Below, one piece after another: positions 3,471 through 25,479 of a stretch of 49,511 nucleotides of DNA (the first letter of the stretch is position 1; each line of letters starts with the position of its first letter). Source of the stretch: an uncultured Clostridia bacterium (GTDB lineage Bacteria; Bacillota; Clostridia; TANB77; CAG-508). A program made the translations under genes and the position numbers. Location of the stretch: contig CALXFG010000011.1 in NCBI GenBank assembly GCA_944387505.1, positions 1 to 49,511 of the forward strand, written 5' to 3'. Below the pieces are notes generated by a model. That model saw nothing but the letters and a program-made list of their open reading frames with translations. It was not told the origin of the DNA and ran no database searches.

Positions 3471-4559
3471 TCACCACTTTAACTCCCAACCGAAAAAGGA
3501 ATATGCAGCATATATGGCTGCGCCTTTTTGAGGCTGTTCTTCTTTTTTCATTATAAGAGGTCCAGAGCAATTCAAATATAAAAAATTCGCAATTTCATTA
3601 TATGTAGTAAAAATTTGAGTGTTTTCTTGATAAAAGTCATAAAAATATGGTTCTTTTACCCATTTACCATCTATAATGAAATATTCTGGATTTAGTATAG
3701 ATCTTACCTGAAGATTTGTCTGATCGATAATAGACAGAATTCCTGATGATATGATGGTATCTAATTGAAACACATATTTTTCATCAGATAAAGATTCCAA
3801 AGCCTTTAATGTATTCTTCTGTTTATCAGTATATCTTGGAAATACAAGTCCAGATGCGATATTGGATTCTTTTGAAAGTATATTGTGTTTTACATATCCA
3901 ATTCGGCCATCATCTAAATCATAATATATGATTGCGTCAGATTCGTAGACTTTTTCCCGTAAATACAATGTATATGCTAATACATTATCTACTTGTACGA
4001 TATTTTCAAATGCCTTAGGTAAAAAGGATGAACAATTGTTAATCATCAGTGATAAAGCATCATTTTGGAAAGTGTTTCCTTGTATATTGTACGCAATATC
4101 TTGATTTTCACCATAGCACATATATTTGTTGAAAACAATAGAACCAGACACAAAGGGAACAATATCCCATAACTTTTGTACCAGGTCTTGTAAAACACGT
4201 AAGCAATTATTACCTTCAAAAATGACCTTATGTGGAAAGTTTGGTGCTATTTTCTCTAATACAGGTTCAAACTGAAAATTTATGAGTTCAATCTCTATTT
4301 CATTTTCAGTTATATAAAAACCTGCAAAATAGGCAAATTCAGGATTGATGACAAAGTTGTCATCCAATATAATTTTGTATTTTTTTAACAGTTGTATTTT
4401 CTTTAATATGGTTGGAAAAGATTCATTTAGATATTTACGTAATTCAGTCTTGTGTTTTTCTAATAAATTTGTTCCTCCTTTTAAATTTGCTCCTCCTTTT
4501 CTGAAAGTATAAAGTAGTTTTTTGTTTTCTTTAATTAGTTTCCGTACCTCCGGTAACAT
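3471..4559 (-). CDS. Hypothetical protein, 362 residues
   Basis: Not recognised. Predicted soluble, mixed alpha/beta, without signal peptide or membrane segment. The N-terminal about 60 residues are Lys-rich and helical; the rest alternates hydrophobic strands and acidic loops, ending in ...SFFGWELKW. Two tandem near-identical 18-bp units (encoding GGANLK and GGTNLL, residues 22-33) both resemble Shine-Dalgarno sequences, but no start codon follows them at useful spacing. The ATG at 4559 has an AAAGGAGG site upstream. It is convergent with the preceding gene pair and divergent from the cotJ operon. Its protein style (Tyr-rich strands, aromatic end) resembles the unrelated-looking 328-residue product at 30656-31642, but I see no convincing alignment. 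Confidence 0.7.
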   Translation of the reverse strand: MLPEVRKLIKENKKLLYTFRKGGANLKGGTNLLEKHKTELRKYLNESFPTILKKIQLLKKYKIILDDNFVINPEFAYFAGFYITENEIEIELINFQFEPVLEKIAPNFPHKVIFEGNNCLRVLQDLVQKLWDIVPFVSGSIVFNKYMCYGENQDIAYNIQGNTFQNDALSLMINNCSSFLPKAFENIVQVDNVLAYTLYLREKVYESDAIIYYDLDDGRIGYVKHNILSKESNIASGLVFPRYTDKQKNTLKALESLSDEKYVFQLDTIISSGILSIIDQTNLQVRSILNPEYFIIDGKWVKEPYFYDFYQENTQIFTTYNEIANFLYLNCSGPLIMKKEEQPQKGAAIYAAYSFFGWELKW

Positions 4560-4762
4560 ATAAATAACCTCCTTTAAAATATTTATTTTATTTTGGAGTT
4601 CATATAAAATGAAACTAACAAAATTTTAATTAGTATATCAAAAAGATTATGTTAAGTCAAATAATGCAAAACAATAATATACAGCATTTATAAATAAATA
4701 GAAACCTAAATTTAGAGCAAATTATAAAAGAAAAAAAGAATAAAGAAGAATAAAAAATGTCA

Positions 4763-4789
4763 ACCTTTTTTGTTACTGTACATATAATG
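4763..4789 (+). promoter_or_regulatory. Possible mother-cell (SigK/SigE-like) promoter of the cotJ operon
   Basis: AC at 4763-4764, 16 bp, then CATATAATG at 4781-4789 resembles the SigK consensus AC-N16-CATANNNTA, and CATATAAT also resembles a SigE -10. No SigA -35 sits at the right distance. The 5' leader would be short, with the AAAGGAGG site at 4795-4802 close to the start of the transcript. Confidence 0.35.
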
Positions 4790-4811
4790 TAACAAAAGGA
4801 GGAATTTTAAT

Positions 4812-5171
4812 ATGTTTAGTAGAAGAAAATGCTATTGTATGAACAACAATTATTCAAATAATTCATGTGAAATGCAAAATGATATCATGGAAACAAAATG
4901 TAATCATGTTGTATCTTATGAAGACAATTCAAATAGTTGTGCTTGTGGCTTTGATGAAGAACAAAGTGTATTCCCAGAAAATCCAATGTTAGCACAAAGT
5001 TATGTTCCAATCCAATACATGGATAGAACATTTAAACCATGTGTAGGATTAAAAATGGGAACGATTTTTCCTGAATTAGTAAGCCCATATTCACCAGGTC
5101 AATCAATGGAAGAAATTAATTATATTGCAATGACCAATAAAATAGGAAAGGGGTGCAACAAATGTCAATAA
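4812..5171 (+). CDS. cotJA: Spore coat protein CotJA
   Basis: First gene of the cotJABC operon, which makes inner-coat proteins in the mother cell during sporulation. The family core is visible at about residues 60-95: QSYVPIQYMDRTFKP followed by GLKMGTIFPELVSPYSPGQS. The N-terminal about 50 residues are Cys/Asn/Met-rich (CYCMNNNYSNNSC, CACGFDEEQ) and longer than in Bacillus CotJA (about 80 residues). The extra cysteines suggest cross-linking or metal binding in the coat, which is inference. The start has an AAAGGAGGAAT site. Its last 10 bases overlap the cotJB start at 5162, as expected for translational coupling. Confidence 0.93.
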   Translation: MFSRRKCYCMNNNYSNNSCEMQNDIMETKCNHVVSYEDNSNSCACGFDEEQSVFPENPMLAQSYVPIQYMDRTFKPCVGLKMGTIFPELVSPYSPGQSMEEINYIAMTNKIGKGCNKCQ

Positions 5172-5503
5172 ATCAAAATAGAAATTGTGGATGCGAAGAA
5201 GAAAATGAAATGATGTGTTGCAATCAAATGCAAGATGTTGAAAGAACAGTAGATTGTGATGAAAGAAGAGAAATGGCTGAGCGCATTAGATGTCTTGAAT
5301 TTGCAATAAATGAATTAGCATTATATTTGGATACACATCCAAATGATCAAAAAGCACTTTGTTTGCACAGAAAATATTGTAAGGAAGTAAAAGAATTAAA
5401 GGATAAATATCAAAAAGTATATGGACCATTAACGATTAATTATCCTTGCAATAAATGGAGATGGCTTGAAGAACCATGGCCATGGGAAAGGGGGAATTTT
5501 TAA
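5162..5503 (+). CDS. cotJB: Spore coat protein CotJB
   Basis: Second gene of the cotJ operon. The CotJB signature is clear: LALYLDTHPNDQKAL, then KYQKVYGPLT and the terminal WRWLEEPWPWE. I choose the ATG at 5162 because AAAGGGG lies 5-8 bp upstream; a GTG at 5153 is in frame but sits inside that site. The product is then 113 residues, with a Cys-rich head (CGCEEENEMMCCNQM). It overlaps cotJA by 10 bp, and its stop codon is immediately followed by the cotJC ATG at 5504, so the three genes were built as one coupled unit. Confidence 0.94.
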   Translation: MSINQNRNCGCEEENEMMCCNQMQDVERTVDCDERREMAERIRCLEFAINELALYLDTHPNDQKALCLHRKYCKEVKELKDKYQKVYGPLTINYPCNKWRWLEEPWPWERGNF

Positions 5504-5713
5504 ATGTGGACATATAATAAAATGTTACAATACCCAATCAATATCAAATGTACAGATCCAAAACTTGCAAAAGTCATTATATCACAATATGGTGGACCAG
5601 ATGGAGAATTAGCAGCATCACTTAGATATTTATCTCAAAGATTTGGAATGCCAGACCAAAATGCAAAAGCTATCTTAAATGATATTGGAACAGAAGAATG
5701 TGTACCAATATGA
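5504..5713 (+). pseudogene. cotJC: cotJC, 5' segment (interrupted by the 9.4-kb element)
   Basis: Encodes the N-terminal 65 residues of CotJC, a coat protein of the manganese-catalase-like family: MWTYNKMLQYPINIK, then QYGGPDGELAASLRYLSQRF and MPDQNAKAILNDIGTEE. After GAA GAA (ending 5698) the chromosomal frame is lost and four element-derived codons (CVPI) lead to TGA at 5711-5713. The missing part, starting with LAHLEMVGTIVHQ, lies at 15062-15472. Both halves keep intact reading frames and meet at an identical 14-bp core. This is therefore better described as a split gene awaiting excision than as a decayed pseudogene. Whether excision happens is inference. Confidence 0.93.
5686..5699 (+). 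other. Left attachment-site core (attL)
   Basis: TGGAACAGAAGAAT is identical to 15049-15062. Bases to its left match cotJC coding sequence (GAT AT), and bases to its right (GTGTACC) are element DNA. Confidence 0.88.
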
Positions 5714-5714
5714 T

Positions 5715-5820
5715 GTCAATAGCTTAAGGAAGCTGTTAGGTTTCACAAACGAAGTGAAGTGAAATCTTACAGATAACTTATGCAGTAGCAAAGACAGGGA
5801 TTACAATCTTAGCTATTGAC
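5715..5820. repeat. 106-bp stem-loop just inside attL
   Basis: GTCAATAGCT at 5715-5724 is perfectly complementary to AGCTATTGAC at 5811-5820. A second layer, GTTTCAC near 5748, pairs with GTGAAAT near 5758. It lies downstream of the two minus-strand element genes and could be their terminator, a structured RNA, or part of the extended attachment region. Confidence 0.7.
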
Positions 5821-5836
5821 TGTAAAATTAGTTGAT

Positions 5837-6613
5837 TTATTCTCTTATTCCTGGAAGTAGTTGTTCAAGTTTTTCTTGATATTGTTTTCCACTAAAACCA
5901 AATGTTTTTCTAATACTATCCAATCTTTGTCTCACTACTTCTTCATCATTTATATTGGTATCAAATAGTGATAGAAAAAAATCTTTTATATTTTTTAAAT
6001 CACCCTCAAATAGTACATCATTACTAAATTTTTTTGTTAATCTAATAATCCCATTTGAGTGGTTAACCCCATAATCTAAATCCTCACCTAAGGCTATAAT
6101 TATATATGGTAAATCTCTATCTTTTGGAATTTCTCTAATTCTAGCTGAAAAAGTATATTTTTCATTCAATTTTTCTGAATCAATTTTACCACTAGCTATT
6201 TCAGATAAATACATTATCTTCATTGTTATCAATCTGTTATTTCCTCCACCAGCTTTATCAAAAATATAATATTTTCCATCAACCTTTATTAATCCTAAAT
6301 CTGTTTTATTAGGGTCTCGAATTTCCTTATAATAATTTGGATTTTTATTGTATAATTCAATAATATTTGCACCTCTATCTAAATCTAAATATGCTTCTAT
6401 CCATGTTTTTCCAGCATATCTTTGATGATTTGTTCCAACAAGATCTCGTATATGAAATTCTTCTTTTTTTCCATCACAATAGTTTGGAACCGCACAATAT
6501 TCTGTTTCTATGTTTGACAGAGGAATATTCTGAATTCTCTCATAAAAAGTGGCAGGATAATTGTTTGTATTTATATGTATACTTTCCAAAAAATCTTTTC
6601 TTATATCATTCAT
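5837..6613 (-). CDS. Hypothetical protein with ParB-like segment, 258 residues
   Basis: Not firmly recognised. The segment GLIKVDGKYYIFDKAGGGNNRLITMKIMYL (its core is within residues 108-135) resembles the ParB/Srx-type pattern in which a strand is followed by a glycine-rich G-x-N/H-R loop and a helix, suggesting a ParB-like nuclease fold. Later parts are Lys/Glu-rich with no further motif. No membrane segment or signal peptide is seen. The ATG at 6613 has GAAAGGAATTT upstream. It is the gene closest to attL, lies just downstream of the recombinase on the same strand (81 bp apart) and may be co-transcribed with it. A role in element maintenance or defence is possible, but this is inference. 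Confidence 0.7.
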   Translation of the reverse strand: MNDIRKDFLESIHINTNNYPATFYERIQNIPLSNIETEYCAVPNYCDGKKEEFHIRDLVGTNHQRYAGKTWIEAYLDLDRGANIIELYNKNPNYYKEIRDPNKTDLGLIKVDGKYYIFDKAGGGNNRLITMKIMYLSEIASGKIDSEKLNEKYTFSARIREIPKDRDLPYIIIALGEDLDYGVNHSNGIIRLTKKFSNDVLFEGDLKNIKDFFLSLFDTNINDEEVVRQRLDSIRKTFGFSGKQYQEKLEQLLPGIRE

Positions 6614-6694
6614 AATTTTAAAATTCCTTTCTCAATACCTTTTTATTATATAATAAAAAATAAAAATACTATATTTTAAGACGGATTTGCTAAT

Positions 6695-8254
6695 CTAAGT
6701 TTTAGATATCTTTGGATATATATGTAATTCAAAGCTCACAGGACTAGAATCCTTTTTTATAGCCTTTTCCGTTTTTAGATAAGTAACTTTACTAATTATA
6801 CTTTTTAATAGAACATTTTTGTCTTCAGCTGTTTCTAAATTATAATATAAATCTATAATATTTTCTAGCTTTGGTATTATAATTTCTTTTTGATTTTGTA
6901 TTTCTAGATTTTTTTGTAATATAGAACTGTATTCTTCTAACTTACTTTCTAAACTTTGAATATTGTATTTTATTGCTTTAGAACGACTTATAAATTCGTT
7001 ATTAGTGTATATTCCATTTTCTAAAAATTCATAGATTTTATTGAGTTTAGCATTTTCTTTTTCTAATTCTTTTTTAGTTGTGCTAATAGACTTTTCTATT
7101 ATTTTATTATTATCAGAGTTTAGATTATTTTTTCTTGAATAATCTACTTTATAATTTTCAAGCCATATTTTTAAGGCATCAATGATTTTATCTTCTACAA
7201 TATAAAGTTTAGAGCTTATATTATCACATTTAGAATTAGAACACATAAGAGTAGCAGGCTTGTCATTTTTGGTATATGGTCGTCTTTGCATAGGTTTGCC
7301 ACATTTCTCACAAAACACTAAACCGGCTAAGGGATTTTGAATAGTGTTATTATGTTTTACTTTTGGAGCATTTTGTTTTCTTTTTTCTTGTACGAATTCC
7401 CAAGTTTTATTATCAATAATAGGCTCATGCAATCCATCATAAATTAAATAATCTTTATTTCGAGGTCTACTAATAATAAGATGTCCATTTTTTGTTTTCT
7501 TTTTTTGCTTTCTTCTATTCCAAACAATTTTACCAATGTATACAGGGTTAGAAAGAATATCTTTAATAGAAGAAATAGACCATTCACTTGCAATCCTAGG
7601 TTTTAAATTTAGTTTATTTAATTGTTTTGCAACTGAATTTATAGTGGCATTTTCAAAAGCATATAATCTAAAAATTTCTTTAACAATAGGGGCTTCATCT
7701 TGGTTTATAGATAGGGTATAGCCTTTTGCATTTTTTAGTTTTACTCTATCATAACCAAAAGGAGCAATATTTCCAACAAATTTACCTTCAGATACAGAAA
7801 GTTCTCGACCTCTTTGTAAACGCCTATTTATAGTTTTATATTCTCTTCTGGACATAAACAAGCCAAACTCAAAGTATTCTTCATCAAATTCATTATCAGG
7901 GTCATATGTTTTAACAGGGGTAATTATTTTTGTATGAGAATATTTAAAGGCTTTTGAAACTCGGCCTTGGTCGGCTGTATCTCCACGAGCAAGTCTTTCT
8001 ACCTCAACAACTAAAACACCTGTCCATTTCTCATTCTCAACATCTCTAAGAAGTTTTTGCATTTCTTTTCTTTCACTAATTGTTTCACCACTTACAACTT
8101 CTCTATAAATTTTTGAAATATGTAGTTTTCTTTTTTTAGCCAAAGTTGTTAAAATTTTCTCATGTCTTGCTAAAGTTTCACCTTCACCATATTTTTCCGC
8201 TTCAATATCTTCTCTTGATTTTCTTAAATATATTGCATATGTGCCATCTTGCAC
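6695..8254 (-). CDS. Large serine recombinase (site-specific integrase/excisionase)
   Basis: 519 residues in the classic large-serine-recombinase order. The resolvase-type catalytic domain has YAIYLRKSRED with the nucleophile Ser13, then VVEVERLARGD and SRREYKTINRRLQRGRE. The recombinase domain (about 160-300) includes NPVYIGKIVWNRR. A zinc ribbon has CEKCGKP and CSNSKC (about 313-340), followed by a coiled coil (about 380-470). This family recombines attB and attP sites through a short central core and needs a directionality factor for excision. The same class includes SpoIVCA of the sigK skin element. The start is GTG at 8252-8254 behind AAAGGAGG. It reads toward attL, 1 kb inside the element, so it is the obvious enzyme for the 14-bp core. 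All catalytic landmarks are intact. Confidence 0.95.
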   Translation of the reverse strand: MQDGTYAIYLRKSREDIEAEKYGEGETLARHEKILTTLAKKRKLHISKIYREVVSGETISERKEMQKLLRDVENEKWTGVLVVEVERLARGDTADQGRVSKAFKYSHTKIITPVKTYDPDNEFDEEYFEFGLFMSRREYKTINRRLQRGRELSVSEGKFVGNIAPFGYDRVKLKNAKGYTLSINQDEAPIVKEIFRLYAFENATINSVAKQLNKLNLKPRIASEWSISSIKDILSNPVYIGKIVWNRRKQKKKTKNGHLIISRPRNKDYLIYDGLHEPIIDNKTWEFVQEKRKQNAPKVKHNNTIQNPLAGLVFCEKCGKPMQRRPYTKNDKPATLMCSNSKCDNISSKLYIVEDKIIDALKIWLENYKVDYSRKNNLNSDNNKIIEKSISTTKKELEKENAKLNKIYEFLENGIYTNNEFISRSKAIKYNIQSLESKLEEYSSILQKNLEIQNQKEIIIPKLENIIDLYYNLETAEDKNVLLKSIISKVTYLKTEKAIKKDSSPVSFELHIYPKISKT

Positions 8255-8294
8255 AGTTCCTCCTTTCCTTGTAATTTGTCTTTAACTTGCAGAT

Positions 8295-8323
8295 ATTATA
8301 TATGAAAACAGTACAAATTACAA
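8295..8323 (-). promoter_or_regulatory. Putative promoter of the recombinase gene
   Basis: On the minus strand, TTGTAA (8318-8323) and TATAAT (8295-8300) are 17 bp apart, a SigA-like arrangement overlapping the stop codon of the small upstream gene. The same stretch contains CATATATAA, loosely like SigE/SigK -10 elements, so sporulation control cannot be decided from sequence. Confidence 0.4.
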
Positions 8324-8455
8324 TAAAGAGGATTTATTCATCAAATTAATTATAATATTGTCTATATATTCTTTTTGATTATTACTATCTTGAACGATAT
8401 AGTCATCATAAAATTTGATTTTAGTATTTCCAATAGTATATTCTTCTAACATCAT
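8318..8455 (-). CDS. Small protein of 45 residues upstream of the recombinase; candidate directionality factor
   Basis: A short frame starting with two methionines (ATG ATG at 8450-8455), with GAGAGGCG as ribosome site 8-9 bp upstream, and ending with TAA at 8318-8320. The product is acidic-to-neutral with Tyr, Asn and Ile: MMLEEYTIGNTKIKFYDDY at the start, NLMNKSSLL at the end. It lies 64 bp before the recombinase on the same strand. Small proteins in this position act as recombination directionality factors in some serine-recombinase elements (SprB of SP-beta; a small skin-encoded protein in C. difficile). No sequence similarity is claimed; the assignment rests on size and place. Confidence 0.6.
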   Translation of the reverse strand: MMLEEYTIGNTKIKFYDDYIVQDSNNQKEYIDNIIINLMNKSSLL

Positions 8456-8846
8456 ATAAATCGCCTCTCTAAAATTTATGAGAAAAACATAAATAAATGC
8501 TTGTGTTAGAGCTTTAGCTCTTACAAAGCATTATATGCAGTGTAAACGCAAAAATACCCAAGACAAGCTGCCTTGAGTAAATTCATATTTTCTATAGTAA
8601 CATTATATGATGTGCGATTTATGAAATCAATTCCTTTTTATTTCCATGATTCTATTTAGAAAATCTAACCTATTATAAAAATAATATCAAATTAAATTTA
8701 CTTTGATATCATTGTTAATAGTAATTAGAGAAATATTGGATACTAATATCTGTTCTAAGTTGTAAATTACTGGATTTTATGATATAGTTTAGATGTAAAA
8801 AAGAGATATAAATATTTTTAAAAAAAGTTATAAGGAGTGGAAGTTT
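8456..8846. other. 391-bp divergent intergenic region with two hairpins
   Basis: No gene is seen. It separates the leftward recombinase pair from the rightward cargo. Hairpin one at 8498-8530 pairs TGCTT and GAGC with GCTC and AGCA across a TTTA loop. Hairpin two at 8555-8581 pairs ACCCAAG with CTTGAGT. The rest is A/T-rich DNA expected to hold promoters for both directions. Confidence 0.6.
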
Positions 8847-9398
8847 ATGGAAAATTATTTTATAATACATGGTTCATTTGGAAGTCCATTTGAAAATTGG
8901 TTTGGTTGGTTACATGATTTTATTGAAGATGATGATAAACAATGCTATGTACCTCAATTTCCAATAGGAGCAGGATATCAAAATTATGAAAATTGGAGTA
9001 AATTACTAAAATATTATTTAGATTTAGGACTAATAAATCAAAACACAACTATTATTGCTCACAGTATAGCACCAGTTTTTGTTTCAAAATTTTTAACTGA
9101 AAACAAGATAAAGATTAAAAAATTAATATCTATATGTGGATTTAATAATTATTTAGGAATAAATGAAGAATATGATAATGTAAATGAATCAATGTACTTT
9201 GATAATTTGAAAGATGTAAAACAGTATGTAGATGAAATAATTTGTTTTTATTCAGATAATGACCCATATGTAAAATATGAAGTAGAAAAAGAGTTTGCGG
9301 ATGAAATTGCCACAGAACAAATTATAATACCAGATGGAGGACATATAAATAGTGAAAGTGGATATGATACATTTGAAGATATAGTAAGTTTTTTATAA
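8847..9398 (+). CDS. RBBP9/YdeN-family alpha/beta hydrolase
   Basis: 183 residues, the usual size of this compact serine-hydrolase family. Motifs in order: YFIIHGSFGSP near the start (oxyanion region), the nucleophile elbow AHSIAP (Ser at about residue 73), FYSDNDPYV with the catalytic Asp, and PDGGHINSESGY with the catalytic His near 155. Substrate unknown; relatives are small esterases of unclear role. The ATG has an AAGGAGTGG site. It begins the rightward cargo of the element and is followed 12 bp later by the 505-residue gene, so the two are probably co-transcribed. Confidence 0.85.
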   Translation: MENYFIIHGSFGSPFENWFGWLHDFIEDDDKQCYVPQFPIGAGYQNYENWSKLLKYYLDLGLINQNTTIIAHSIAPVFVSKFLTENKIKIKKLISICGFNNYLGINEEYDNVNESMYFDNLKDVKQYVDEIICFYSDNDPYVKYEVEKEFADEIATEQIIIPDGGHINSESGYDTFEDIVSFL

Positions 9399-9410
9399 GG
9401 AAGGAAAAAA

Positions 9411-10928
9411 ATGAAAATTCAAAATAAATATTCCAAAAAGAGAAAAACTACTAAAGATAGAATATTTGAAAATTATCAAAGATTAAGAAAAAGCATAAGA
9501 TTAAAAACTTGCAAGATAATACCTTTATCAATAAACGAAAATTTATTATATAATGATAAAGTTCCTAGAATGAAGAATACAAAAATAGATAAAAATAGGT
9601 ACTTCGGATTAAACGGACAAATTTATATACTTGATACTTATCCTAAAGCGAAGATTAGTAATTTATATGTAGAACTAAATGAACTAATTAGGAAAAATCC
9701 GGTTACAAAAAAGATAATTTCTACTGTTATGGAAAAAGATTTAAAATCAGCTGTGTTGCAATTCGCGTCTGCTGATAATATGAATAGATACTGTCAACAT
9801 TTTGATATAACACCAAAAGATAGGAAACTTGATAAAATAGTTGATTTTATTTCTATAACAATGTTTGAATTGTCAAATGATTTTATTGGGATTAGTTTTG
9901 AAGTTAATCTTTCTGATGAATGCAAAAAAGAAATAAATAATTTGATAATATCTGATTGTGAGGGAGAAGAAGAATATATTAAATATTATAGTAGAAAAAA
10001 GACATTAGTTACGAAAACGTCATGGAATCCAGATATTACAAGAAGAAAAATTATAAATGACTATATAATAGAAATAAAAACTAGGACAATTGATTTTATA
10101 TCTAAATATATTAGTTTAAATAAAAAGAATAATAAACCTCCTATTAGTATCGATGTTTATACTACAAATTATAACTTAAATGAGGATAATAGATTTCTAC
10201 ATACATATGATGTATTTAATTTTGACAAAACGAAAGATAATATATCTGTTGTATATAGATATACTGAAAAAAGTGATGAATTTATAGATTCTGAATTCAT
10301 ATTTGATTGTGAAGAGAACTCTCAAGAAATAAATAGGTCAGCTAGACTTGTTATATATAAAGCCGATGAGTTACAAAAAATGTTTATTATTCAATCTGAG
10401 TTAATTAACTTTTTTATTATTACTTTATATTTTTATAACATAGGAGAATTTAGTAGAAAACTTTCTATTATAAGAAATAATTTATATAAATTCTATTCTA
10501 AAAAAGAAAGTAAAATTTATAGAGAATATGATAAGTCAATAAAAGCAATTCAAAAATATAAAATGATGTTTAATAATGTAAAATTATCTAACAATTTTTA
10601 TAGTTATAAATATTTAGAAGATAGTTTGCAATTCCAAAATAAAAGATATGAAGAATTGTTAGAAAGTTATGAACAACTAGAAGTATCTTATAATAATAAA
10701 ATGTTAGTTGCTAATTATAAAAGTACGTCTTGGTTAGCAAAGGTATCGATTCTTATTGCTATAATTAGTATTTTTATTACTATAGGTTTGACATTTTTAA
10801 AAGATCCAAATATAGAAAATATTGATGACAACATAAAAATTCAGTTGGAAGAAATAAAGAAACAAAATAATAAAATAGATTCCATCGATGACAAAATTGA
10901 ATATTTTATAGATAAAAATAACAAATAG
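9411..10928 (+). CDS. Unknown 505-residue protein with C-terminal membrane anchor
   Basis: Not recognised. A long soluble N-terminal part (residues 1-370) is Lys/Asn/Ile-rich with alternating strands. It is followed by a probable coiled coil (about 380-435), a single strongly hydrophobic segment (about 441-463: VSILIAIISIFITIGLTFL) and a charged 42-residue tail predicted to be coiled. This is a tail-anchored topology with most of the protein on one side of the membrane. It starts 12 bp after the hydrolase gene with an AAGGAAGG site, implying one transcript. Accessory elements of this kind often carry membrane-linked defence effectors, but no effector motif is visible, so this is only inference. 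Confidence 0.75.
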   Translation: MKIQNKYSKKRKTTKDRIFENYQRLRKSIRLKTCKIIPLSINENLLYNDKVPRMKNTKIDKNRYFGLNGQIYILDTYPKAKISNLYVELNELIRKNPVTKKIISTVMEKDLKSAVLQFASADNMNRYCQHFDITPKDRKLDKIVDFISITMFELSNDFIGISFEVNLSDECKKEINNLIISDCEGEEEYIKYYSRKKTLVTKTSWNPDITRRKIINDYIIEIKTRTIDFISKYISLNKKNNKPPISIDVYTTNYNLNEDNRFLHTYDVFNFDKTKDNISVVYRYTEKSDEFIDSEFIFDCEENSQEINRSARLVIYKADELQKMFIIQSELINFFIITLYFYNIGEFSRKLSIIRNNLYKFYSKKESKIYREYDKSIKAIQKYKMMFNNVKLSNNFYSYKYLEDSLQFQNKRYEELLESYEQLEVSYNNKMLVANYKSTSWLAKVSILIAIISIFITIGLTFLKDPNIENIDDNIKIQLEEIKKQNNKIDSIDDKIEYFIDKNNK

Positions 10929-11110
10929 AGCAGGATAGTAATGCTTAACACATCACCTACACACGTAGAAGGACAAGCCTCCTAGAGTTATTAAAAGAAC
11001 AAAAATTTTAAGCAAATTTGATGTAAAAATTCACCAAATGAACGACTTAAAAATGCCCTTTAGAGTACGTAAGTTCACTGAATGAATTCAAAATTTCACC
11101 ATTCTTTAAG

Positions 11111-11129
11111 TAAAAGTTCACTTAGTGTA
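11111..11129 (+). repeat. 19-bp direct repeat, left copy
   Basis: TAAAAGTTCACTTAGTGTA, identical to 14954-14972. The two copies bracket the RhuM fragment, SDR fragment, KAP NTPase and toxin-antitoxin genes (3,843 bp apart). Confidence 0.75.
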
Positions 11130-11176
11130 TTAATAAAAATCATTAAACAAAATATAATAAATATATAATAAATCAA

Positions 11177-11205
11177 TTGACAAAAGAACAATTGTTTGAT
11201 AATAT
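11177..11205 (+). promoter_or_regulatory. Promoter in front of the RhuM remnant
   Basis: TTGACA at 11177-11182, 17 bp, TAATAT at 11200-11205. It is flanked by the direct repeat CAATTG (11174 and 11188), a possible operator. Because the -10 lies beyond 11196, translation must start further downstream than the first available TTG. Confidence 0.6.
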
Positions 11206-11813
11206 ATAACAAACAAAAAACGGAGTTGGTTTATTATAATAACAAATTAATTGGAAATAAAAATAATATCGTATTTTATACGAATGAAGAAGGAAATACT
11301 AATATAGAAGTAATTTTACAAACTGAAGATGTTTGGCTAAATGCACAAGCTATTGCAGAATTATTTGATGTTAATGATAAAGCAATTTATAAACATATAG
11401 CAAATATCTATGAACAAGAGGAATTAGAAGAAGATTCAACATTCTCCATTTTGGAGACTATTGGAAAAAATGGACATAAGTATAAAACAAAATATTATAA
11501 TTTAGATATGATTATATCAATTGGATATAGAGTAAATTCAAAAAAAGCAGTGAAATTCAGACAATGGGCAAACAAAATAATAAAAGAATATATGGTAAAA
11601 GGTTTTGCTTTAGATGATGATAGATTTTTAAAAGGTGGCAAAGTAAATAGACAATATTTTGATGAGTTATTAGAAAGAATTAAAGTAATTCGTACAAGCG
11701 AAAGAATGGCTTATCAAAAAATAACAGATTTATTTATAGCGACATCTATTGATTATGACAAAAAATCAGAAGAAGCATATACATTTTTCAAAATAGTTCA
11801 AAATATGCTATAG
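11196..11813 (+). pseudogene. RhuM-family protein, C-terminally truncated
   Basis: The frame encodes EGNTNIEVILQTEDVWLNAQAIAELFDV in its first third, then KHIANIYEQEEL, YYNLDMIISIGYRVNS and FRQWANKIIKEYMVKGF. These are hallmarks of the RhuM/virulence-protein family of mobile elements. Family members are about 330 residues; this one stops after about 205 at ...FFKIVQNML, exactly where a copy of SDR-gene DNA begins (11796). The junction shows about 10 bp of microhomology (GTTCAAAATA). The start is uncertain: the frame opens with TTG at 11196 inside the promoter, so a later non-ATG start is more likely. Biochemical role of the family is not established. Confidence 0.8.
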
Positions 11814-12183
11814 ATTTAATGAATGATGAAGGTTGGATTGTTAGCACATCTTCAATTAGAGGTATAGATTATTCTGGTAGAGCAGGTATTATTGGATATT
11901 GTTCTGCAAAAGCAGGTATGAATAGTTTCACAAAGACTTTAGCAATGGAATTAGCCCCTAAAATATATGTAAATGCAGTTGCACCAGGATTTGTATATAC
12001 AAACTATATGGATACAGTAACAGATGAAATGAAACAAGCTTGGCTTAAAAATATACCAATTAATAAATTTATAGAACCAAAAGAAATTGCAGAAGTATAT
12101 TTAATGTTAGCAACATCTAAGATATTTACGGGTTCAATAGTAACGCCAGATGGTGGATATTCATTATTAAATAAATAGCAAAT
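11796..12183 (+). pseudogene. 3' half of an SDR gene, duplicated inside the element
   Basis: 388 bp that match 16390-16777 (3' end of the intact SDR gene) with about nine mismatches by eye, roughly 98% identity. A 119-codon frame from ATG 11819 to 12178 keeps the catalytic YCSAKAG motif and C-terminus but lacks the TGxxxGIG nucleotide-binding half, so no functional oxidoreductase is expected. The left edge is fused to the RhuM frame; the right edge ends at TAGCAAAT, the same point at which the chromosomal copy switches to toxN-derived DNA. No ribosome site precedes 11819. Confidence 0.9.
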
Positions 12184-12212
12184 AAAAAGGTTGCATAAAA
12201 TAGGAGAATAAA

Positions 12213-14081
12213 ATGAAAAAAATAGTAAAAGTATTTAATAGTTTATCCATTACAAATATAATTATATATTTAATGTTTATGTATGATTCTTCTAGAGAAA
12301 CAATAAAAAAACTGATAATTTTTATATTCAACGATAATATAGCAAGTAAAATATCAGAAATATATGAACAAATTATAAAATATTGTAAAGTAGAGATTTA
12401 TTTGTTTATTATTTCTATTATGGTATATTTTGTGTTTTTTCTAATAAGGAAATATTTATATCAAAATAAATATCTAAAAAGAAAGCAATTAAAAGAATTA
12501 AAAAGCGAAGAAACACAAAAGGTATACAAGTCAATATATGAATATTTAAATAGTAAAGATAAGAGAGCTTTTTTATTAATAGGAGACTGGGGAAGTGGAA
12601 AAACTTATACAATAAATAGATTTTTTAATAATTATTATAAGTATCAAAATAGAAAAGTTTATAAAATTTCATGCTTTGGCTTAGAGGGTAGAGAGACAAT
12701 ATTAAAAGAAATGAAAACAATTTTTGAAACTGAAGATGATTCAATAACTAAAAAAATATTAAATTTAATTAACAAAATTCCGATAATAGGAGACTTTTTG
12801 GTTGGAATATTAAAAAGTGACTATGAATTAAAAGATATATCACAAAACTCCATTTTTATCTTTGATGATTTTGAAAGGATTACACCATTAGGAGATATAA
12901 ATGATAGGATAAATAAAAGAAAAATGAGAAGAGCTCTTACTAGACTTCAGATGAGTAACAGAAGAATGTATAATACATCTGAACATAGAAGTAGTGATGA
13001 AAGTAGTGTAGAGTACCAAGTTTTATCAAGATACAATGTAGTCATAGGAATTATTAATGAATTAGTTGACAGATATGATATGAAAGTTATAATTTTATGT
13101 AATACTAATGAAATTAGTAAAACTTTTGTGCATGAAATGTTTGAATGTAAATTAGATTGTAAAAAATTTAGGATTGTTTCAAACGAAAAAATATTTATAG
13201 AATTATCTAATAAAATTTTAGATAACAATATGGATTTTTCATTAGAGAAAAAGGGACAATTAGTAAAATTTTTCTATGACATTAGTGATGATATAAATAA
13301 AATATGGCACAACACGAGAATTGAAAATATTAGAATTCTTTCTGGAATAATATCAGCTTTTTTAGAATTAGTAGAGAACAACGATGTGGATTCAAATTAT
13401 TATTTAGATATATTTTATAGTATATATGTATATCATATTCTGTATTATAATGATGAACTAGATTTTTTTAGAAATTTAAATACGGGACAAAATATATATT
13501 GTTATTATCAAAAATTAAAAAAGATTGAGAGAATAAAAGAAAATGATATTATTTTATCAATTGAAGATACTAGGAATAAAAAAGCAAAATGGGTTGGAAT
13601 AGAAATAGCCTCAAATTGGTTAGTTGGAGAAAATGCTAATTGTATATTAAATTTACAAAAAATGGATGATTACGATATTGGATTAGAAGATTACATTGTA
13701 GAGAATAAGGAAATTCCAAAAATCGCGAAATATAGATTTGATGATTTGATGTATATTCTATCATGTGACAATACAAAAATAGATGAAATCCAAGAAATTA
13801 TAGACAAAAAAACAATTGATTTTGAATATAGGAATTATAAACGTAGAAATATAGAAGAAGACTCCTTATTGTTAAAAATAAAACCTTTGACTGAATATAT
13901 TAAAAATAATAATATACTAGAAAATCAAGATTTTATCACAGTTATATTTAAAAAAATATATGAAACATATCAATATAAAAATATTGATATAAACTCATAT
14001 ATTGGCTTTGAACAAAACCTTATAAAAAAATATAATGAATGGATAAAAAGCAAAGAGATTAGTGAACTAGATAAAAAATAG
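12213..14081 (+). CDS. KAP-type P-loop NTPase, membrane-anchored
   Basis: 622 residues. Two N-terminal hydrophobic segments (about 9-24 and 61-79) anchor it. The NTPase core follows: Walker A GDWGSGKT near residue 125, a conserved FGLEGRETILKEM helix and Walker B SIFIFDDFERI near residue 215, then IILCNTNEI as the likely sensor strand near 295. The order and the membrane segments fit the KAP family, which includes the phage-exclusion protein PifA and is often found in defence loci. The remaining 300 residues are helical and unrecognised. Start ATG 12213 has ATAGGAG upstream. The frame ends with TAG at 14079-14081 but stays open for 42 more codons to TAG at 14208-14210, so the C-terminus may be truncated. 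An anti-phage role is inference. Confidence 0.85.
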   Translation: MKKIVKVFNSLSITNIIIYLMFMYDSSRETIKKLIIFIFNDNIASKISEIYEQIIKYCKVEIYLFIISIMVYFVFFLIRKYLYQNKYLKRKQLKELKSEETQKVYKSIYEYLNSKDKRAFLLIGDWGSGKTYTINRFFNNYYKYQNRKVYKISCFGLEGRETILKEMKTIFETEDDSITKKILNLINKIPIIGDFLVGILKSDYELKDISQNSIFIFDDFERITPLGDINDRINKRKMRRALTRLQMSNRRMYNTSEHRSSDESSVEYQVLSRYNVVIGIINELVDRYDMKVIILCNTNEISKTFVHEMFECKLDCKKFRIVSNEKIFIELSNKILDNNMDFSLEKKGQLVKFFYDISDDINKIWHNTRIENIRILSGIISAFLELVENNDVDSNYYLDIFYSIYVYHILYYNDELDFFRNLNTGQNIYCYYQKLKKIERIKENDIILSIEDTRNKKAKWVGIEIASNWLVGENANCILNLQKMDDYDIGLEDYIVENKEIPKIAKYRFDDLMYILSCDNTKIDEIQEIIDKKTIDFEYRNYKRRNIEEDSLLLKIKPLTEYIKNNNILENQDFITVIFKKIYETYQYKNIDINSYIGFEQNLIKKYNEWIKSKEISELDKK

Positions 14082-14139
14082 AGTATATTAATTAATTCAC
14101 TTGATGTATGTGAAATTTATGAAAATTCAACAAAAAATA

Positions 14140-14168
14140 TTGATTTTGTAAATAAAATGAAGTATAAT
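14140..14168 (+). promoter_or_regulatory. Promoter of the type III antitoxin RNA
   Basis: TTGATT at 14140-14145, 17 bp, TATAAT at 14163-14168, placed about 40 bp before the first RNA repeat. It lies in the stretch that continues the KAP NTPase frame beyond its stop codon. Confidence 0.6.
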
Positions 14169-14208
14169 AAATATACTAATATTGATAAATTAATTTATCA
14201 AATAAACT

Positions 14209-14370
14209 AGGTTGCACAAGCCTTTGATTAATGTCATAAACAAGTGCAAATTTAAACATTAGGTTAGATATGAGCCTTTAGAATGCGAATTCTATAAACG
14301 AATATCCTATTGAACATTAGGTTAGAAACGAGCCTTTAGTTTACTATAAACGAGTTTCCAGAAAAATTAT
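14209..14370 (+). ncRNA. Type III antitoxin RNA: three structured repeats
   Basis: Three tandem repeats begin with AGGTT at 14209, 14261 and 14319 (about 52, 58 and 52 bp). All share (A/G)AGCCTTT and later ATAAAC. Outer arms differ in sequence but stay complementary: TTGCAC with GTGCAA in repeat 1, GATAT with ATATC in repeat 2, GAAAC with GTTTC in repeat 3. An inner hairpin also covaries (AGAAT/ATTCT in repeat 2, AGT/ACT in repeat 3). In type III systems each repeat is cut out by the toxin and folds into a pseudoknot that inhibits it. Position just before a terminator and toxN fits exactly. Confidence 0.85.
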
Positions 14371-14398
14371 GGGGGTACTTAAAAAAGTATCCCCTATA
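14371..14398 (+). terminator. Terminator between antitoxin RNA and toxin gene
   Basis: GGGGGTACTT pairs with AAGTATCCCC around AAAA and is followed by an A/T-rich run. In type III systems a leaky terminator here sets an excess of antitoxin RNA over toxin mRNA. Confidence 0.85.
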
Positions 14399-14418
14399 TT
14401 TGTAATACGGAGGAATAA

Positions 14419-14949
14419 ATGAAAAATTCAAAGAAAATAAAATTAGGAAAATTAAATTTTTATATTATAGATGATAATTATATTAAATATTTAAGTCAAT
14501 TTGATAAACATATTGCTTATAACAAAAATGAAAAAAGACCATACATAGGAGTTGTGATTATTGTTGAAGAACATTATTATTTTGCACCTTTATTTTCTCC
14601 AAAGCCAAAACATAAAACATATAAAGATAATTTAACTTTTTTCAAAATTAGAAATACTAAAACAAAAAATGATTTAGGTATAATTAGATTTTCAGATATG
14701 ATACCAGTACCACAAGAAAGTGTTTATTTATTAGATATAAAAAGTAAAAGTTATGGATATAAAAGACTACTTTCAGAACAATATTCTTACATAAACAAGC
14801 CCGAAAATAAAGCAAAAATTATGGAAAAAGCAGAAAAGATTTATAGTATAGTTACTAAAAATAGTAAAAGTAAGATGGCTAAATTTTATAAGGAGCTAAG
14901 TTGTGATTTCAAACTATTAGAAGAAAAAAGTGCTGAATATAAAGCTTAA
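14419..14949 (+). CDS. Type III toxin, ToxN/AbiQ-family endoribonuclease
   Basis: 176 residues, the usual size. Family motifs are clear: FYIIDDNYIKYLSQFD at residues 12-27, KRPYIGVVIIVEEHYYFAPLFSPK at 41-64 (the Tyr-Ile-Gly strand and the FAPL-SPK active-site region), a KHKTYKDN stretch with the catalytic Lys/Thr area, then GIIRFSDMIPVP and YKRLLSEQYSYI. The enzyme cuts mRNA at A-rich sites and processes its own antitoxin RNA, and is held inactive as an RNA-protein complex; it is known in phage abortive infection and plasmid stabilisation. ATG 14419 has CGGAGGAAT upstream. RNA repeats and a terminator precede it and a strong terminator follows. A near-identical 142-bp part occurs at 16778-16919. 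Confidence 0.93.
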   Translation: MKNSKKIKLGKLNFYIIDDNYIKYLSQFDKHIAYNKNEKRPYIGVVIIVEEHYYFAPLFSPKPKHKTYKDNLTFFKIRNTKTKNDLGIIRFSDMIPVPQESVYLLDIKSKSYGYKRLLSEQYSYINKPENKAKIMEKAEKIYSIVTKNSKSKMAKFYKELSCDFKLLEEKSAEYKA

Positions 14950-14953
14950 AAAA

Positions 14954-15000
14954 TAAAAGTTCACTTAGTGTACTTTAATTCACTTGGTGAACTTTTTTGT
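14954..15000 (+). terminator. Terminator of toxN, including the right 19-bp direct repeat
   Basis: AAAAGTTCAC pairs with GTGAACTTTT, followed by TT. The left arm (14954-14972) is identical to 11111-11129. Confidence 0.85.
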
Positions 15001-15048
15001 ATATTATTTCACAGCCAATAACTATAAATTTTTTTGTTGACAACATAA

Positions 15049-15062
15049 TGGAACAGAAGAAT
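15049..15062 (+). other. Right attachment-site core (attR)
   Basis: TGGAACAGAAGAAT, identical to 5686-5699. To its left is element DNA containing TGTTGACAACA (a short palindrome, 15035-15045); to its right the cotJC frame resumes with TTG GCT CAC. Confidence 0.88.
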
Positions 15063-15472
15063 TGGCTCACTTAGAAATGGTAGGAACCATTGTACACCAA
15101 TTAACTAAAGGAGCTAGTATTGAAGAAATTGAAAAAGCAGGATTAAGTGCATATTACACAGACCATGGTGTGGATGTATATCCACAGGCAGCAGCAGGAT
15201 TTCCATTTAATGCAGGGGTTCTTGCTTGTAAAGGAGACCCAATTGCAAACTTGCAAGAAGACTTAGCTGCAGAACAAAAAGCAAGAGCAACTTATGAAAA
15301 ATTAATTGATTTATGTAGAGATAACCCAGATGTACTAGATCCATTAAGATATTTAAGAGAAAGAGAAATTGTACACTTCCAAAGATTTGGAGAAGCATTA
15401 AGAGGTGTTCAAGATAAATTAGCAGAGAAAAAATATTATATGAATCATAATAACAATTGTGGTTGTAATTAA
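15063..15472 (+). pseudogene. cotJC: cotJC, 3' segment
   Basis: Carries residues 66-201 of the rejoined CotJC: LAHLEMVGTIVHQ (Glu and His of the manganese-catalase-like four-helix bundle), DPIANLQEDLAAEQKARATYEKL, LRYLREREIVHFQRFGEAL and a Cys/Asn-rich tail NHNNNCGCN. The metal-ligand Glu/His residues of both helix pairs are split between the two segments, so neither half alone can fold as the family does. There is no ribosome site and no natural start here: the codon at 15062 is TTG in the body of the gene. The frame is undamaged, which suggests selection has kept it useful. A terminator follows at 15477. Confidence 0.93.
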
Positions 15473-15476
15473 AAAG

Positions 15477-15508
15477 AAACTCCTATATTTTAATAATATG
15501 GGAGTTTT
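15477..15508 (+). terminator. Terminator of the cotJ operon
   Basis: AAACTCC at 15478-15483 pairs with GGGAGTTT at 15500-15507, with an inner TAT/ATA pair, directly after the cotJC stop. Confidence 0.85.
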
Positions 15509-15646
15509 AAATAATATAAAAAAATATTTGCAGATGTCATGAAATTTAATAAAGATAAATATTATGTATGAATATTGTAAAAAAATACTATGAAAAAAAC
15601 ATATTTTATGATATTATAATGAAAAAATGAAAGAGGTGTGATTGTT

Positions 15647-16028: not shown

Positions 16029-16772
16029 ATGAAATTAAAAGGTAAAGTAGCATTAATTACAGGTTCTTCTTCTGGAATAGGTAAAGCCATAGCATTATTA
16101 TTTGCAGAAGAGGGAGCAGATGTAATAATAAGTTCTAATACTTCAAGTGAAGAAGGAAATAAAGTATTAGAAGAAGTGCTAAAAAAAGGTTCTGATGCAA
16201 TTTATGTACAAGCTGATGTAACAAAAGAAGCTAATATAAAGAATATGTTTAATAAAATAAAGGAAAAGTATGGAAAACTAGATATATTAATTAATAACGC
16301 AGGAAGAACTTTCAATACTCAATTTAAAGATATAACAGAAGAAACAATAGCAAGAGATATTAATACCAATTTAACATCTGCAATTCTATGTTCAAAATAT
16401 GCTATAGATTTAATGAATGATGAAGGTTGGATTGTTAACACATCTTCAATTAGAGGTATAGATTATTCTGGTAGAGCAGGAATTATTGGATATTGTTCTG
16501 CAAAAGCAGGTATAAATAATTTCACAAAGACCTTAGCAATGGAATTAGCTCCTAAAATATATGTAAACGCAGTTGCACCAGGATTTGTATATACAAACTA
16601 TATGGATACAGTAACAGATGAAATGAAACAAGCTTGGCTTAAAAATATACCAATTAATAAATTTATAGAACCAAAAGAAATTGCAGAAGTATATTTAATG
16701 TTAGCAACATCTAAGATATTTACGGGTTCAATAGTAACGCCAGATGGTGGATATTCATTGTTAAATAGATAG
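16029..16772 (+). CDS. Short-chain dehydrogenase/reductase (FabG-like SDR)
   Basis: 247 residues, complete. The Rossmann motif TGSSSGIG is at residues 12-19, then the NNAG motif (ILINNAGRT near 87), the catalytic Ser in VNTSSIRG near 141 and YCSAKAG with the catalytic Tyr/Lys near 155. It ends in TGSIVTPDGGYSLL, typical of the 3-oxoacyl-ACP-reductase-like branch. Substrate unknown; the real fabG of the fatty-acid cluster is at 45195. ATG 16029 has GAAAGGTGG upstream, 16 bp after the NTF2-like gene. The last 388 bp are duplicated inside the cotJC element (11796-12183), and the 3' flank switches abruptly to toxN-derived DNA at 16778. Confidence 0.9.
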   Translation: MKLKGKVALITGSSSGIGKAIALLFAEEGADVIISSNTSSEEGNKVLEEVLKKGSDAIYVQADVTKEANIKNMFNKIKEKYGKLDILINNAGRTFNTQFKDITEETIARDINTNLTSAILCSKYAIDLMNDEGWIVNTSSIRGIDYSGRAGIIGYCSAKAGINNFTKTLAMELAPKIYVNAVAPGFVYTNYMDTVTDEMKQAWLKNIPINKFIEPKEIAEVYLMLATSKIFTGSIVTPDGGYSLLNR

Positions 16773-24102: not shown

Positions 24103-24125
24103 AAAGATGAATGGAGTTGAAAAAT

Positions 24126-25479
24126 ATGGCTTTTGAAGGATTATCTTCTAGATTACAAGAAATTACAAGAAAAATCAGAGGAAAAGCAAGAATTACAGAA
24201 TCAGATTTAAAAGAAATGCTAAGAGAAGTAAAACTTGCGTTATTAGAAGCTGATGTTAACTATAAAATCGTAAAAGAATTTATTGCAACGATTCAAGAAA
24301 AAGCCTTAGGTCAAGATGTTTTAAAATCTTTAACTCCAGGACAACAAGTTGTAAAAATTGTAAAAGATGAATTAGTAGAACTACTAGGTGGACAAACAAG
24401 TCAAATTAATTTTACACCAAATCCACCAACGATTATCATGTTAGTAGGTCTTCAAGGTTCAGGTAAAACCACAACAGCAGGAAAATTGGCAAATATACTT
24501 AGAAAACAAGGTAAAAAACCTTTATTGGTTGCTTGTGATGTATATAGACCAGCTGCTATCAAACAATTACAAGTTGTTGGTGCACAGTTAAACATACCTG
24601 TTTTTGCAAATGAAAACTCAAAAGATGTTGTGCATATTGCAAGACAAGCATTATCTGTTGCGATGTCAAAACTAAATGATATAGTAATCTTAGATACAGC
24701 AGGTAGACTACATATTGATGAAGAATTAATGCAAGAATTAAAGAATTTAAAAGCAAATATTAAACCTCATGAAATATTACTTGTTGTAGACAGTATGACA
24801 GGTCAAGATGCGGTAAATGTTGCACAAAGTTTTAGTGATAATGTTGGAATTGATGGAATTATCCTTACAAAGCTTGATGGTGATACCAGAGGTGGTGCAG
24901 CACTTTCTGTTAAAAAAGTAACAGGAAAGCCAATTAAATTTGCAGCAACTGGAGAAAAACTAAGTGACATCGAAGTATTCCATCCAGATAGAATGGCTCA
25001 AAGAATTTTAGGAATGGGAGACATTCTAGCAGTTATTGAAAAGGCTGAAGAATCATTTGATATGGAACAAGCTGAACAGCTTGAAAAACAAATGAAGAAA
25101 AAAGAATGGGATTTAGATGATTATTTAGCACAAATTAGACAAGTAAAGAAAATGGGTTCATTTTCATCATTATTAAAATTAATACCAGGCTTTAATCAAA
25201 TAAAAGATTTAAAAGTAGATGATAAAGAATTTGTTAAAATTGAAGCAATTATTTGTTCAATGACAAAAGAGGAAAAACGAAATACAAAATTATTAAATGC
25301 GAGCAGAAGACAAAGAATTGCAAAACGGAAGTGGAACAACTGTACAAGATATTAACAAATTTATCAAATCTTTTGAAATGACACAAAAAATGATGAAACA
25401 GATGAAAAACAACAAAGGTGGTATGAAGAAATTATTAAGTGGAATTGATGAAAATGCATTAAAGAATCTTAAATTCTAA
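24126..25479 (+). CDS. ffh: Signal recognition particle protein Ffh (apparent frameshift near the C-terminus)
   Basis: GTPase that binds SRP RNA and signal peptides of nascent membrane proteins. N domain MAFEGLSSRLQEITRKIRG; G domain with GLQGSGKTTTAGKLA, DTAGR and TKLDGDTRGG; M domain with GMGDILAVIE and SRRQRIA. At 25322-25325 an A run appears one base too long: the frame should continue into GSGTTVQDINKF and the Met-rich MTQKMMKQMK helix, but instead runs to a stop at 25355. With one A removed the protein is about 450 residues, the normal size. Losing the RNA-binding GSG-containing helix would be lethal, so a sequence error is more likely than a mutation. I use ATG 24126, after TGGAG, rather than the in-frame codon at 24111. 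Confidence 0.92.

Follow-up and report, generated by a model that had tools for sequence, protein, structure and literature searches.

How can a spore coat protein be made from a gene that lies in two separate pieces? This question is raised by a contig of 49,511 nucleotides from an uncultured Clostridia bacterium (GTDB lineage Clostridia; TANB77; CAG-508; GenBank assembly GCA_944387505.1, contig CALXFG010000011.1), whose whole length is called the window below. Codons 1–65 of its cotJC gene are followed by an element of 9,363 bp carrying a large serine recombinase, and codons 66–201 come after the element. We consider it probable, at roughly 0.77, that the element is cut out precisely by its SprA-like recombinase in the sporulating mother cell, which would restore cotJC for coat assembly. 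Rebuilding of the gene by excision during sporulation is supported by indirect evidence, which is set out in the following sections.

The exact junction and empty sites in related species

An initial annotation of the window had described a cotJC gene split after residue 65 with intact frames on both sides, identical 14-bp cores at the two borders and an intact large serine recombinase inside the left end, and all of this was confirmed (coordinates in Table 1). The core TGGAACAGAAGAAT is identical at both ends, and the identity stops at the core on both sides. Joining positions 5504–5699 to 15063–15472 creates a CotJC frame that is open over all 201 codons. For comparison, none of 302 random end pairs reached 14 common bp on the tested diagonal, and 0.3% of these null pairs had at least 8 bp in common.

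The initial annotation had named a second intact cotJC copy as an argument against its proposal; besides the two pieces, no further CotJC was found in the assembly of this organism (G000; 1.86 Mb, 65 contigs, 93.9% complete). It had also suggested looking for empty sites in relatives, and these were present in all five other species of the genus that were fetched (G038, G202, G203, G055 and G061): each contains an uninterrupted cotJC, and the joined sequence of the window aligns through the junction in each of them with 89–95% nucleotide identity. Near-identical full-length CotJC proteins are also present in public protein data (P0003, 99% over 98%; P0001, 97% over 100%), which may represent other strains or species.

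Interruptions of cotJC across the genus and the family

The element described by the initial annotation is real, but it is not a sole case, because it proved to be one of many across the genus: over half of the related species that were examined have a cotJC gene interrupted by one or more elements. An Mn_catalase match was obtained in 192 of 210 genomes of the genus, and a full-length CotJC row was counted in 67 of the 210. The remaining 125 genomes together with G073 were searched with the joined protein in sets of 55 and 71, and all of them matched with E values of 0.01 or better. Before counting breaks, we excluded G101, the only one of the 126 searched genomes with nothing but a distant homologue, as well as remote or very weak matches in other genomes; alignment ranges running on through stops were trimmed by hand (G049, G098, G118 and G162). 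Of the 125 genomes counted, 116 have cotJC broken in at least one of six codon positions, and in 39 genomes two or more sites are affected. In 68 genomes, the pieces on either side of the break were found for at least one site; a one-sided break may be a contig end. The sites are E (codons about 35–37; 3 genomes), A (codons 62–66; 81 genomes), B (codons 100–103; 31 genomes), C (codons 114–119; 16 genomes), D (codons 134–137; 29 genomes) and F (codons 176–178; 2 genomes, of which G110 is doubtful). Because the site F break of G110 is located at contig ends, G130 is the one genome that establishes this site. There, cotJC is present in five pieces with four elements. The elements at B and F are closed within a single contig, and the genome has recombinases of all four classes A, B, C and F (see below).

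Among the loci fetched, we identified 60 distinct junctions with an element of more than 1 kb and both pieces on one contig. Joining was free of stops in 56 of these, the core was at least 5 bp long in 51, and both applied to 50; the ten exceptions are L031, L032, L133, L123, L096, L114, L244, L109, L048 and L073, the first three of which contain a CGG variant in the N-terminal piece. Elements at site A range from 3.3 to 11.7 kb in length. Their gene content varies, and the recombinase is nearly always present (L062 excepted). Decayed halves in relatives, which the initial annotation had regarded as evidence against rebuilding, look rare, with an internal stop within the matched stretch in four loci, a count that underestimates decay because local alignments can end at a stop. 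In a separate observation, one genome (G047; L026 and L228) apparently has cotJC twice, with the break at site A in one copy and at site D in the other.

We consider it likely, if a little less so than precise excision of the single element, that cotJC is a gene in pieces, with six intragenic sites, distinct recombinase classes and several elements (four in G130) that would have to be spliced from one gene of 600 bp in one mother cell before a working coat protein could be produced; this coat gene would be a shared safe harbour for competing elements. In a sample of the family, comprising 195 genomes from 39 genera, 171 gave a CotJC match. Of the 160 family genomes outside the genus, 74 were counted with a row reaching from residue 13 or before to residue 193 or beyond, a few of them with stops. 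Among the matches listed for the other 86, most pieces have a border at one of the sites A, B, C and D, but some do not, such as 1–122 in G369, 1–88 in G352 and 33–200 in G244. Judged by this sample, interruption of cotJC is probably spread across the family.

The members of the genus look like spore formers because SpoIVA was found in 196 of the 210 genomes, including that of the window; a control search for RecA gave a match in 205 of 210. We also considered whether elements split SpoIVA in some genomes. Among 20 genomes inspected, namely those with low or multiple SpoIVA matches, no pair of pieces separated by an element was found on one contig: 13 showed the sequence CGGN at the shift (see below), three had contiguous shifts (G088, G121 and G184) and four were partial or located at contig ends (G177, G180, G183 and G195). 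With SpoIVA as the sporulation gene for comparison, cotJC looks like a preferred target.

Recombinase classes matched to the insertion sites

The best match of the window recombinase in the PDB is SprA (YokA) of phage SPbeta, with 172 bits and residues 9–510 aligned to residues 18–526 of SprA; the PDB entries for SprA include a fusion with YotN (SprB). The sequence YLRKSRED around the catalytic serine aligns with YLRRSRQD of SprA, and together with homology along the full length, a recombinase domain and a zinc ribbon this identifies the protein as a recombinase of the SprA type. The recombinases of the elements were assigned to classes labelled by sequence motif, of which E and F are single rows in the tree. 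This tree comprises 49 rows, and a supported branch separates each of the classes A, B, C and D from the other rows; the identity between classes A to E is 23–45%. Wherever the recombinase of an inspected element is intact, its class fits the insertion site.

Relatives of the recombinase were also found on viral contigs (10 proteins with 41–50% identity, none of them beside cotJC), and all matches in annotated phages were under 60%. Next to a cotJC piece, and at the same site, class A relatives were observed in two Oscillibacter contigs, one uncultured Clostridia contig and one Halothermothrix contig (L139–L142), so the cotJC target is probably used outside the family of the window.

A small open reading frame and two types of putative promoters

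Directly 5' of the recombinase gene lies an open reading frame (ORF) for a protein of 45 residues, which is conserved in most of the site-A elements (Table 1) and is a candidate for the recombination directionality factor. A looser search for a small ORF 5' of the recombinase was positive in all 84 class A loci (66 unique) and in 11 of 12, 6 of 9, 3 of 5, 3 of 3 and 1 of 1 loci of classes B, C, D, E and F, respectively, where duplicates of a contig are included in the counts. The 45-residue protein gave no convincing match among PDB sequences and none in PHROGs or Pfam.

Promoters were called against what we take to be the consensus sequences for sigma-A and sigma-E. A sigma-E or sigma-K consensus was looked for before the recombinase gene, and none was seen. 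A sigma-A-like promoter is present there instead, which lies inside an inverted repeat and is conserved across 66 unique class A upstream regions. Of 43 unique regions upstream of class A small ORFs, 39 contain the motif CATANANT and 33 the complete pair of sigma-E-like boxes; in 796 upstream regions of ordinary ORFs these numbers are 65 and 8, and shuffling gave 3.2 and 0.39 per shuffle. Inverted repeats of differing sequence flank the recombinase promoter or ribosome site in classes A, B, C and D (8267–8323 in the window) and are possible operators.

Excision in the mother cell is predicted because this promoter layout is the same as in the logic of the skin element and of sprA/sprB, with a small factor setting the timing. 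In the skin element of C. difficile, which interrupts sigK, the recombinase is produced from a sigma-A promoter and the factor under sigma-E and SpoIIID (CD1231/CD1234; PMC5025042, accessible part). In B. subtilis, SprA rebuilds spsM, with sprA expressed in vegetative cells and sprB, coding for a factor of 58 residues, in the mother cell, according to the accessible part of PMC4191935. By analogy, the recombinase of the cotJC element would be made from its sigma-A-like promoter, and the 45-residue protein, made from a sigma-E-like promoter, would act as the directionality factor that triggers excision by attL x attR recombination exclusively in the mother cell. Kept in the forespore line, the element would be inherited, and its loss from the terminal mother cell would be without cost. 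Where a genome has several elements, each of them would be removed by its own recombinase.

Alternative explanations

It is also conceivable that cotJC is merely a favoured landing site for serine-recombinase elements that move horizontally, where insertion inactivates a dispensable coat gene without scheduled rebuilding. The missing Mn_catalase match in 18 of the 210 genomes, the differing cargo of the elements and the uncorrelated divergence of elements and cotJC would all fit such a case, as would the statement in the accessible part of PMC11222575 that two cotJC paralogues of C. difficile were mutated by insertion without causing a significant defect of the coat. Nevertheless, 56 of 60 joined frames are open although the gene is broken in 116 of 125 genomes, including 39 with breaks at more than one site; moreover, the insertion sites are inside the gene, the pieces show low ratios of non-synonymous to synonymous substitutions (dN/dS), and conservation extends to both the small ORF and the sigma-E-like promoter in front of it. 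We therefore regard inactivation without rebuilding as unlikely.

Marginally less probable still is a reversible excision and reinsertion in growing cells, which would turn cotJC on and off within the population as a switch or by active lysogeny, under loose sporulation control. It would agree with the sigma-A-like promoter of the recombinase gene and with the yin element of C. botulinum, whose integrated and excised forms were observed at all time points (PMC10747680, accessible part), but a sigma-E-like promoter precedes the gene for the candidate directionality factor, and it is this factor that sets the timing in both described systems. An assembly artefact from chimeric contigs or misbinned pieces is very unlikely because the architecture recurs in many assemblies from several projects, at the same six sites and with matching recombinase classes, and because a single contig contains the two pieces for each of 60 distinct junctions, even if the named records are metagenome assemblies and some breaks coincide with contig ends (e.g. 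site F of G110).

Several observations weigh against the precise excision of the elements in the mother cell, which we nevertheless prefer. The analysis is based on one genome per species without reads, and excision itself is predicted. Four of the 60 junctions retain a stop and nine cores are shorter than 5 bp, some recombinase matches in other genomes are fragmentary or contain stops, and class A includes seven rows from viral contigs that were not seen beside cotJC. The directionality factor was assigned by position and conservation and matches no known family. The promoter motifs were chosen after viewing the alignment, and its rows are related; in the window, a small insertion makes the −35 box unlike its commonest form. 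The divergence of the recombinase shows no correlation with that of cotJC (rho −0.03) and a weak one with that of cotJB (0.25); for cotJB and cotJC rho is 0.70 (231 pairs from 22 loci), and for the two cotJC pieces it is 0.79. Because recombinase divergence does not track cotJC, the elements apparently pass from one lineage to another and land in the same codon, as judged from these sequence comparisons, and an attempt to date the insertions by codivergence of recombinase and cotJC failed for want of a correlation. As the insertions cannot be dated, low dN/dS values are no proof of selection after insertion; the insertions may be young, with dN/dS reflecting the time before them. The median dN/dS values of split cotJC genes are 0.128 for the C-terminal and 0.101 for the N-terminal part, compared to 0.070 and 0.083 in 20 intact genes, and thus the value of the C-terminal part is higher in split than in intact genes.

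Organisation and cargo of the element in the window

The features of the locus are listed in Table 1. A split sporulation gene, a recombinase near one end, repeats that restore the frame and empty sites in relatives are features that the element has in common with the sporulation gene-intervening elements skin, SPbeta, gin and yin. None of the seven element proteins scanned against PHROGs, a set that leaves the hydrolase ORF outside, is a phage structural or packaging protein; their matches are to an integrase, to weakly matching antirepressor-type families and to families of unassigned function. Relaxase or conjugation genes were absent from a Pfam scan of the seven largest ORFs of the element, and no Rfam family was found in 4700–15600. 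The repeats and the ToxN/AbiQ-like gene at 14252–14949 are a probable type III toxin-antitoxin cargo, as suggested by their sequence.

Table 1. Features of the interrupted cotJC locus in the window.
Feature	Position	Strand	Basis
cotJA	4812..5171	+	Pfam CotJA, 48.3 bits, above cut-off
cotJB	5153..5503	+	Pfam CotJB, 93.2 bits, above cut-off
cotJC 5' piece, residues 1-65	5504..5698	+	Pfam Mn_catalase, 71.5 bits, above cut-off
attL core TGGAACAGAAGAAT	5686..5699	+	exact sequence match
left inner arm of attachment site	5700..5723	+	closely similar in most site-A elements listed
ORF of 258 residues, function unassigned	5837..6613	-	no match in Pfam, PADLOC, NCBIfam, PHROG
large serine recombinase, 519 residues, class A	6695..8254	-	intact frame; Resolvase, Recombinase and zinc-ribbon domains
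sigma-A-like recombinase promoter, TTGTAA/17 bp/TATAAT	8267..8323	-	flanking inverted repeat TTGTAATTTGT / ACAAATTACAA
small ORF of 45 residues, candidate recombination directionality factor	8321..8455	-	homologue in 31/35 site-A elements
sigma-E-like promoter of the 45-residue ORF, GCATTT/14 bp/CATAAATT	8473..8500	-	motif comparison
cargo, serine hydrolase-like	8847..9398	+	Pfam Ser_hydrolase, 57.9 bits
cargo, ORF of 505 residues	9411..10928	+	no match in family searches (Pfam, PADLOC, NCBIfam, PHROG)
cargo, RhuM-type gene, shortened at SDR fragment	11196..11813	+	Pfam Virulence_RhuM, 164.6 bits, profile positions 7-126 of 252
host SDR gene fragment	11796..12183	+	379/388 bases identical to SDR gene 16029-16772
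cargo, possible AAA-type ATPase, 622 residues	12213..14081	+	AAA_22, 25.2 bits (cut-off 27, just missed); PADLOC PDC-S49, 52.6 bits
two 30-bp direct repeats 5' of toxN-like gene, possible antitoxin RNA	14252..14339	+	no match in Rfam
cargo, ToxN/AbiQ-like gene	14419..14949	+	Pfam ToxN_toxin, 142.3 bits; PADLOC AbiQ, 154.7 bits
right inner arm of attachment site, GTTGACAACATAATGG	15036..15051	+	comparison of attachment sites
attR core TGGAACAGAAGAAT	15049..15062	+	exact sequence match
cotJC 3' piece, residues 66-201	15062..15472	+	Pfam Mn_catalase, 88.7 bits, above cut-off

The RhuM-type cargo gene is truncated by a 388-bp copy (98% identity) of the 3' part of a host SDR gene, and the parent gene of this copy (16029–16772) is located just beyond the right end of the element. 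Upstream of cotJA, at about 4781–4791, a conserved CATATAAT or CATATTAT box was observed, which is present in 23 of the 25 listed of 100 unique upstream regions.

CGGN as a putative glycine codon

An apparent frameshift at residue 62 of cotJC consisted, in all seven contiguous genes showing it (L040, L061, L062 and L233–L236), of an extra C before a glycine codon, resulting in the sequence CGGN. The CGGN loci of spoIVA are L153–L155, L160–L163, L165–L168, L170 and L171. In a scan of 905 ORFs against 167 loci, where one junction can count more than once, 93 of 95 events with a +1 shift had an in-frame CGG near the junction, compared to 15 of 16 with a −2 shift, none of 13 with a −1 shift and none of 6 with a +2 shift; 67 of 139 in-frame CGG codons fall in the last tenth of the ORF. 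The window itself contains such a case at 24111–25352, an ORF which we take to be ffh-like from its C-terminal sequence and which reads RQRIAK-CGGA-SGTTVQDINKF, with the CGG at codon 405 of 414. The genome contains three tRNA-Gly(UCC) genes, one of which has the variant anticodon loop CTTCCGA (L204, G000:C39:6241-6311), so UCCG could pair with CGGN, and no tRNA-Arg(CCG) was seen among its 30 tRNA matches. From these patterns, many species of the genus seem to translate CGGN into a single glycine, either as a four-base codon or by +1 frameshifting. Two further ORFs of the window (3471–4559 and 30658–31642) contain in-frame CGG without a shift, which contradicts such decoding everywhere; they may be recent acquisitions. 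Some of the broken-looking recombinases may be whole because of CGGN decoding. No account of natural CGGN decoding was found in the literature searched, which was one limited collection.

A separate arrangement was observed in G100 (L062, 1170–4432), where cotJC is contiguous and contains CGGN. At a distance of 2.2 kb after it come a gene that by eye resembles toxN of the window, an attR-like site and another 3' piece of CotJC, as though a remnant of the element had been left behind after restoration of the gene.

Relation to known gene-intervening elements

The same limited collection contained no account of cotJC as a rebuilt gene. Like skin, with its serine recombinase under a sigma-A promoter, its small factor under a sigma-E promoter and a sporulation gene rebuilt in the mother cell, the cotJC element has a serine recombinase with a sigma-A-like promoter, a candidate factor with a sigma-E-like promoter and a target gene that is predicted to be rebuilt there, but skin is one element at one site in sigK, whereas here a coat gene is interrupted at six sites. 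Its recombinase is homologous to that of SPbeta along the full length; SPbeta, however, is an active prophage, unlike the cotJC element without a phage structural gene among the seven proteins scanned. The gin element in gerE of B. cereus is also a non-phage gene-intervening element using serine recombinases and a small factor, GirX; it has 28.6 kb and combines three recombinases in one element (PMC5595907, accessible part), whereas several elements with their own recombinases share cotJC. The yin element in yabG of C. botulinum resembles the cotJC element in its 14-bp repeat, the recombinase next to the 5' piece and the sporulation gene as target, but it was reported as unique to one strain (PMC10747680, accessible part), while the cotJC elements are widespread in the genus. 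A mobile element at a cotJC-type gene is also known from C. difficile R20291, where the accessible part of PMC11222575 describes the CotJC-homologue gene CDR20291_1465 as adjoining prophage phi027, not as split and rebuilt. In C. tetani, the serine recombinases of prophages, one of them in sigK, group by insertion site (PMC5553647, accessible part), as do the recombinase families of this study. Those prophages are at separate loci in one genome, in contrast to several sites in one gene. Developmental excision is known from the heterocyst elements of cyanobacteria, such as the fdxN element with its recombinase XisF and those of several nif genes. The window recombinase is related to the XisF family, but its match of 107 bits is below the cut-off of 375, and those elements are excised in heterocysts, not for spores.

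As far as the accessible parts of these accounts go, the described sporulation cases compared here (sigK, spsM, gerE and yabG) involve one element per gene, whereas cotJC has six sites and is found in up to five pieces. This opens the way to testing how several serine recombinases act within one cell and why a gene of the mother cell is a safe harbour. The elements also supply a series of recombinases for which attachment sites are matched and directionality factors can be proposed. In these species, gene callers would be expected to overlook cotJC or to predict it too short. If the proposed excision is true, the disposable chromosome of the mother cell would serve as a shelter for the elements, and the interrupted cotJC genes would be the bacterial equivalent of the sequences that ciliates eliminate from their genes.

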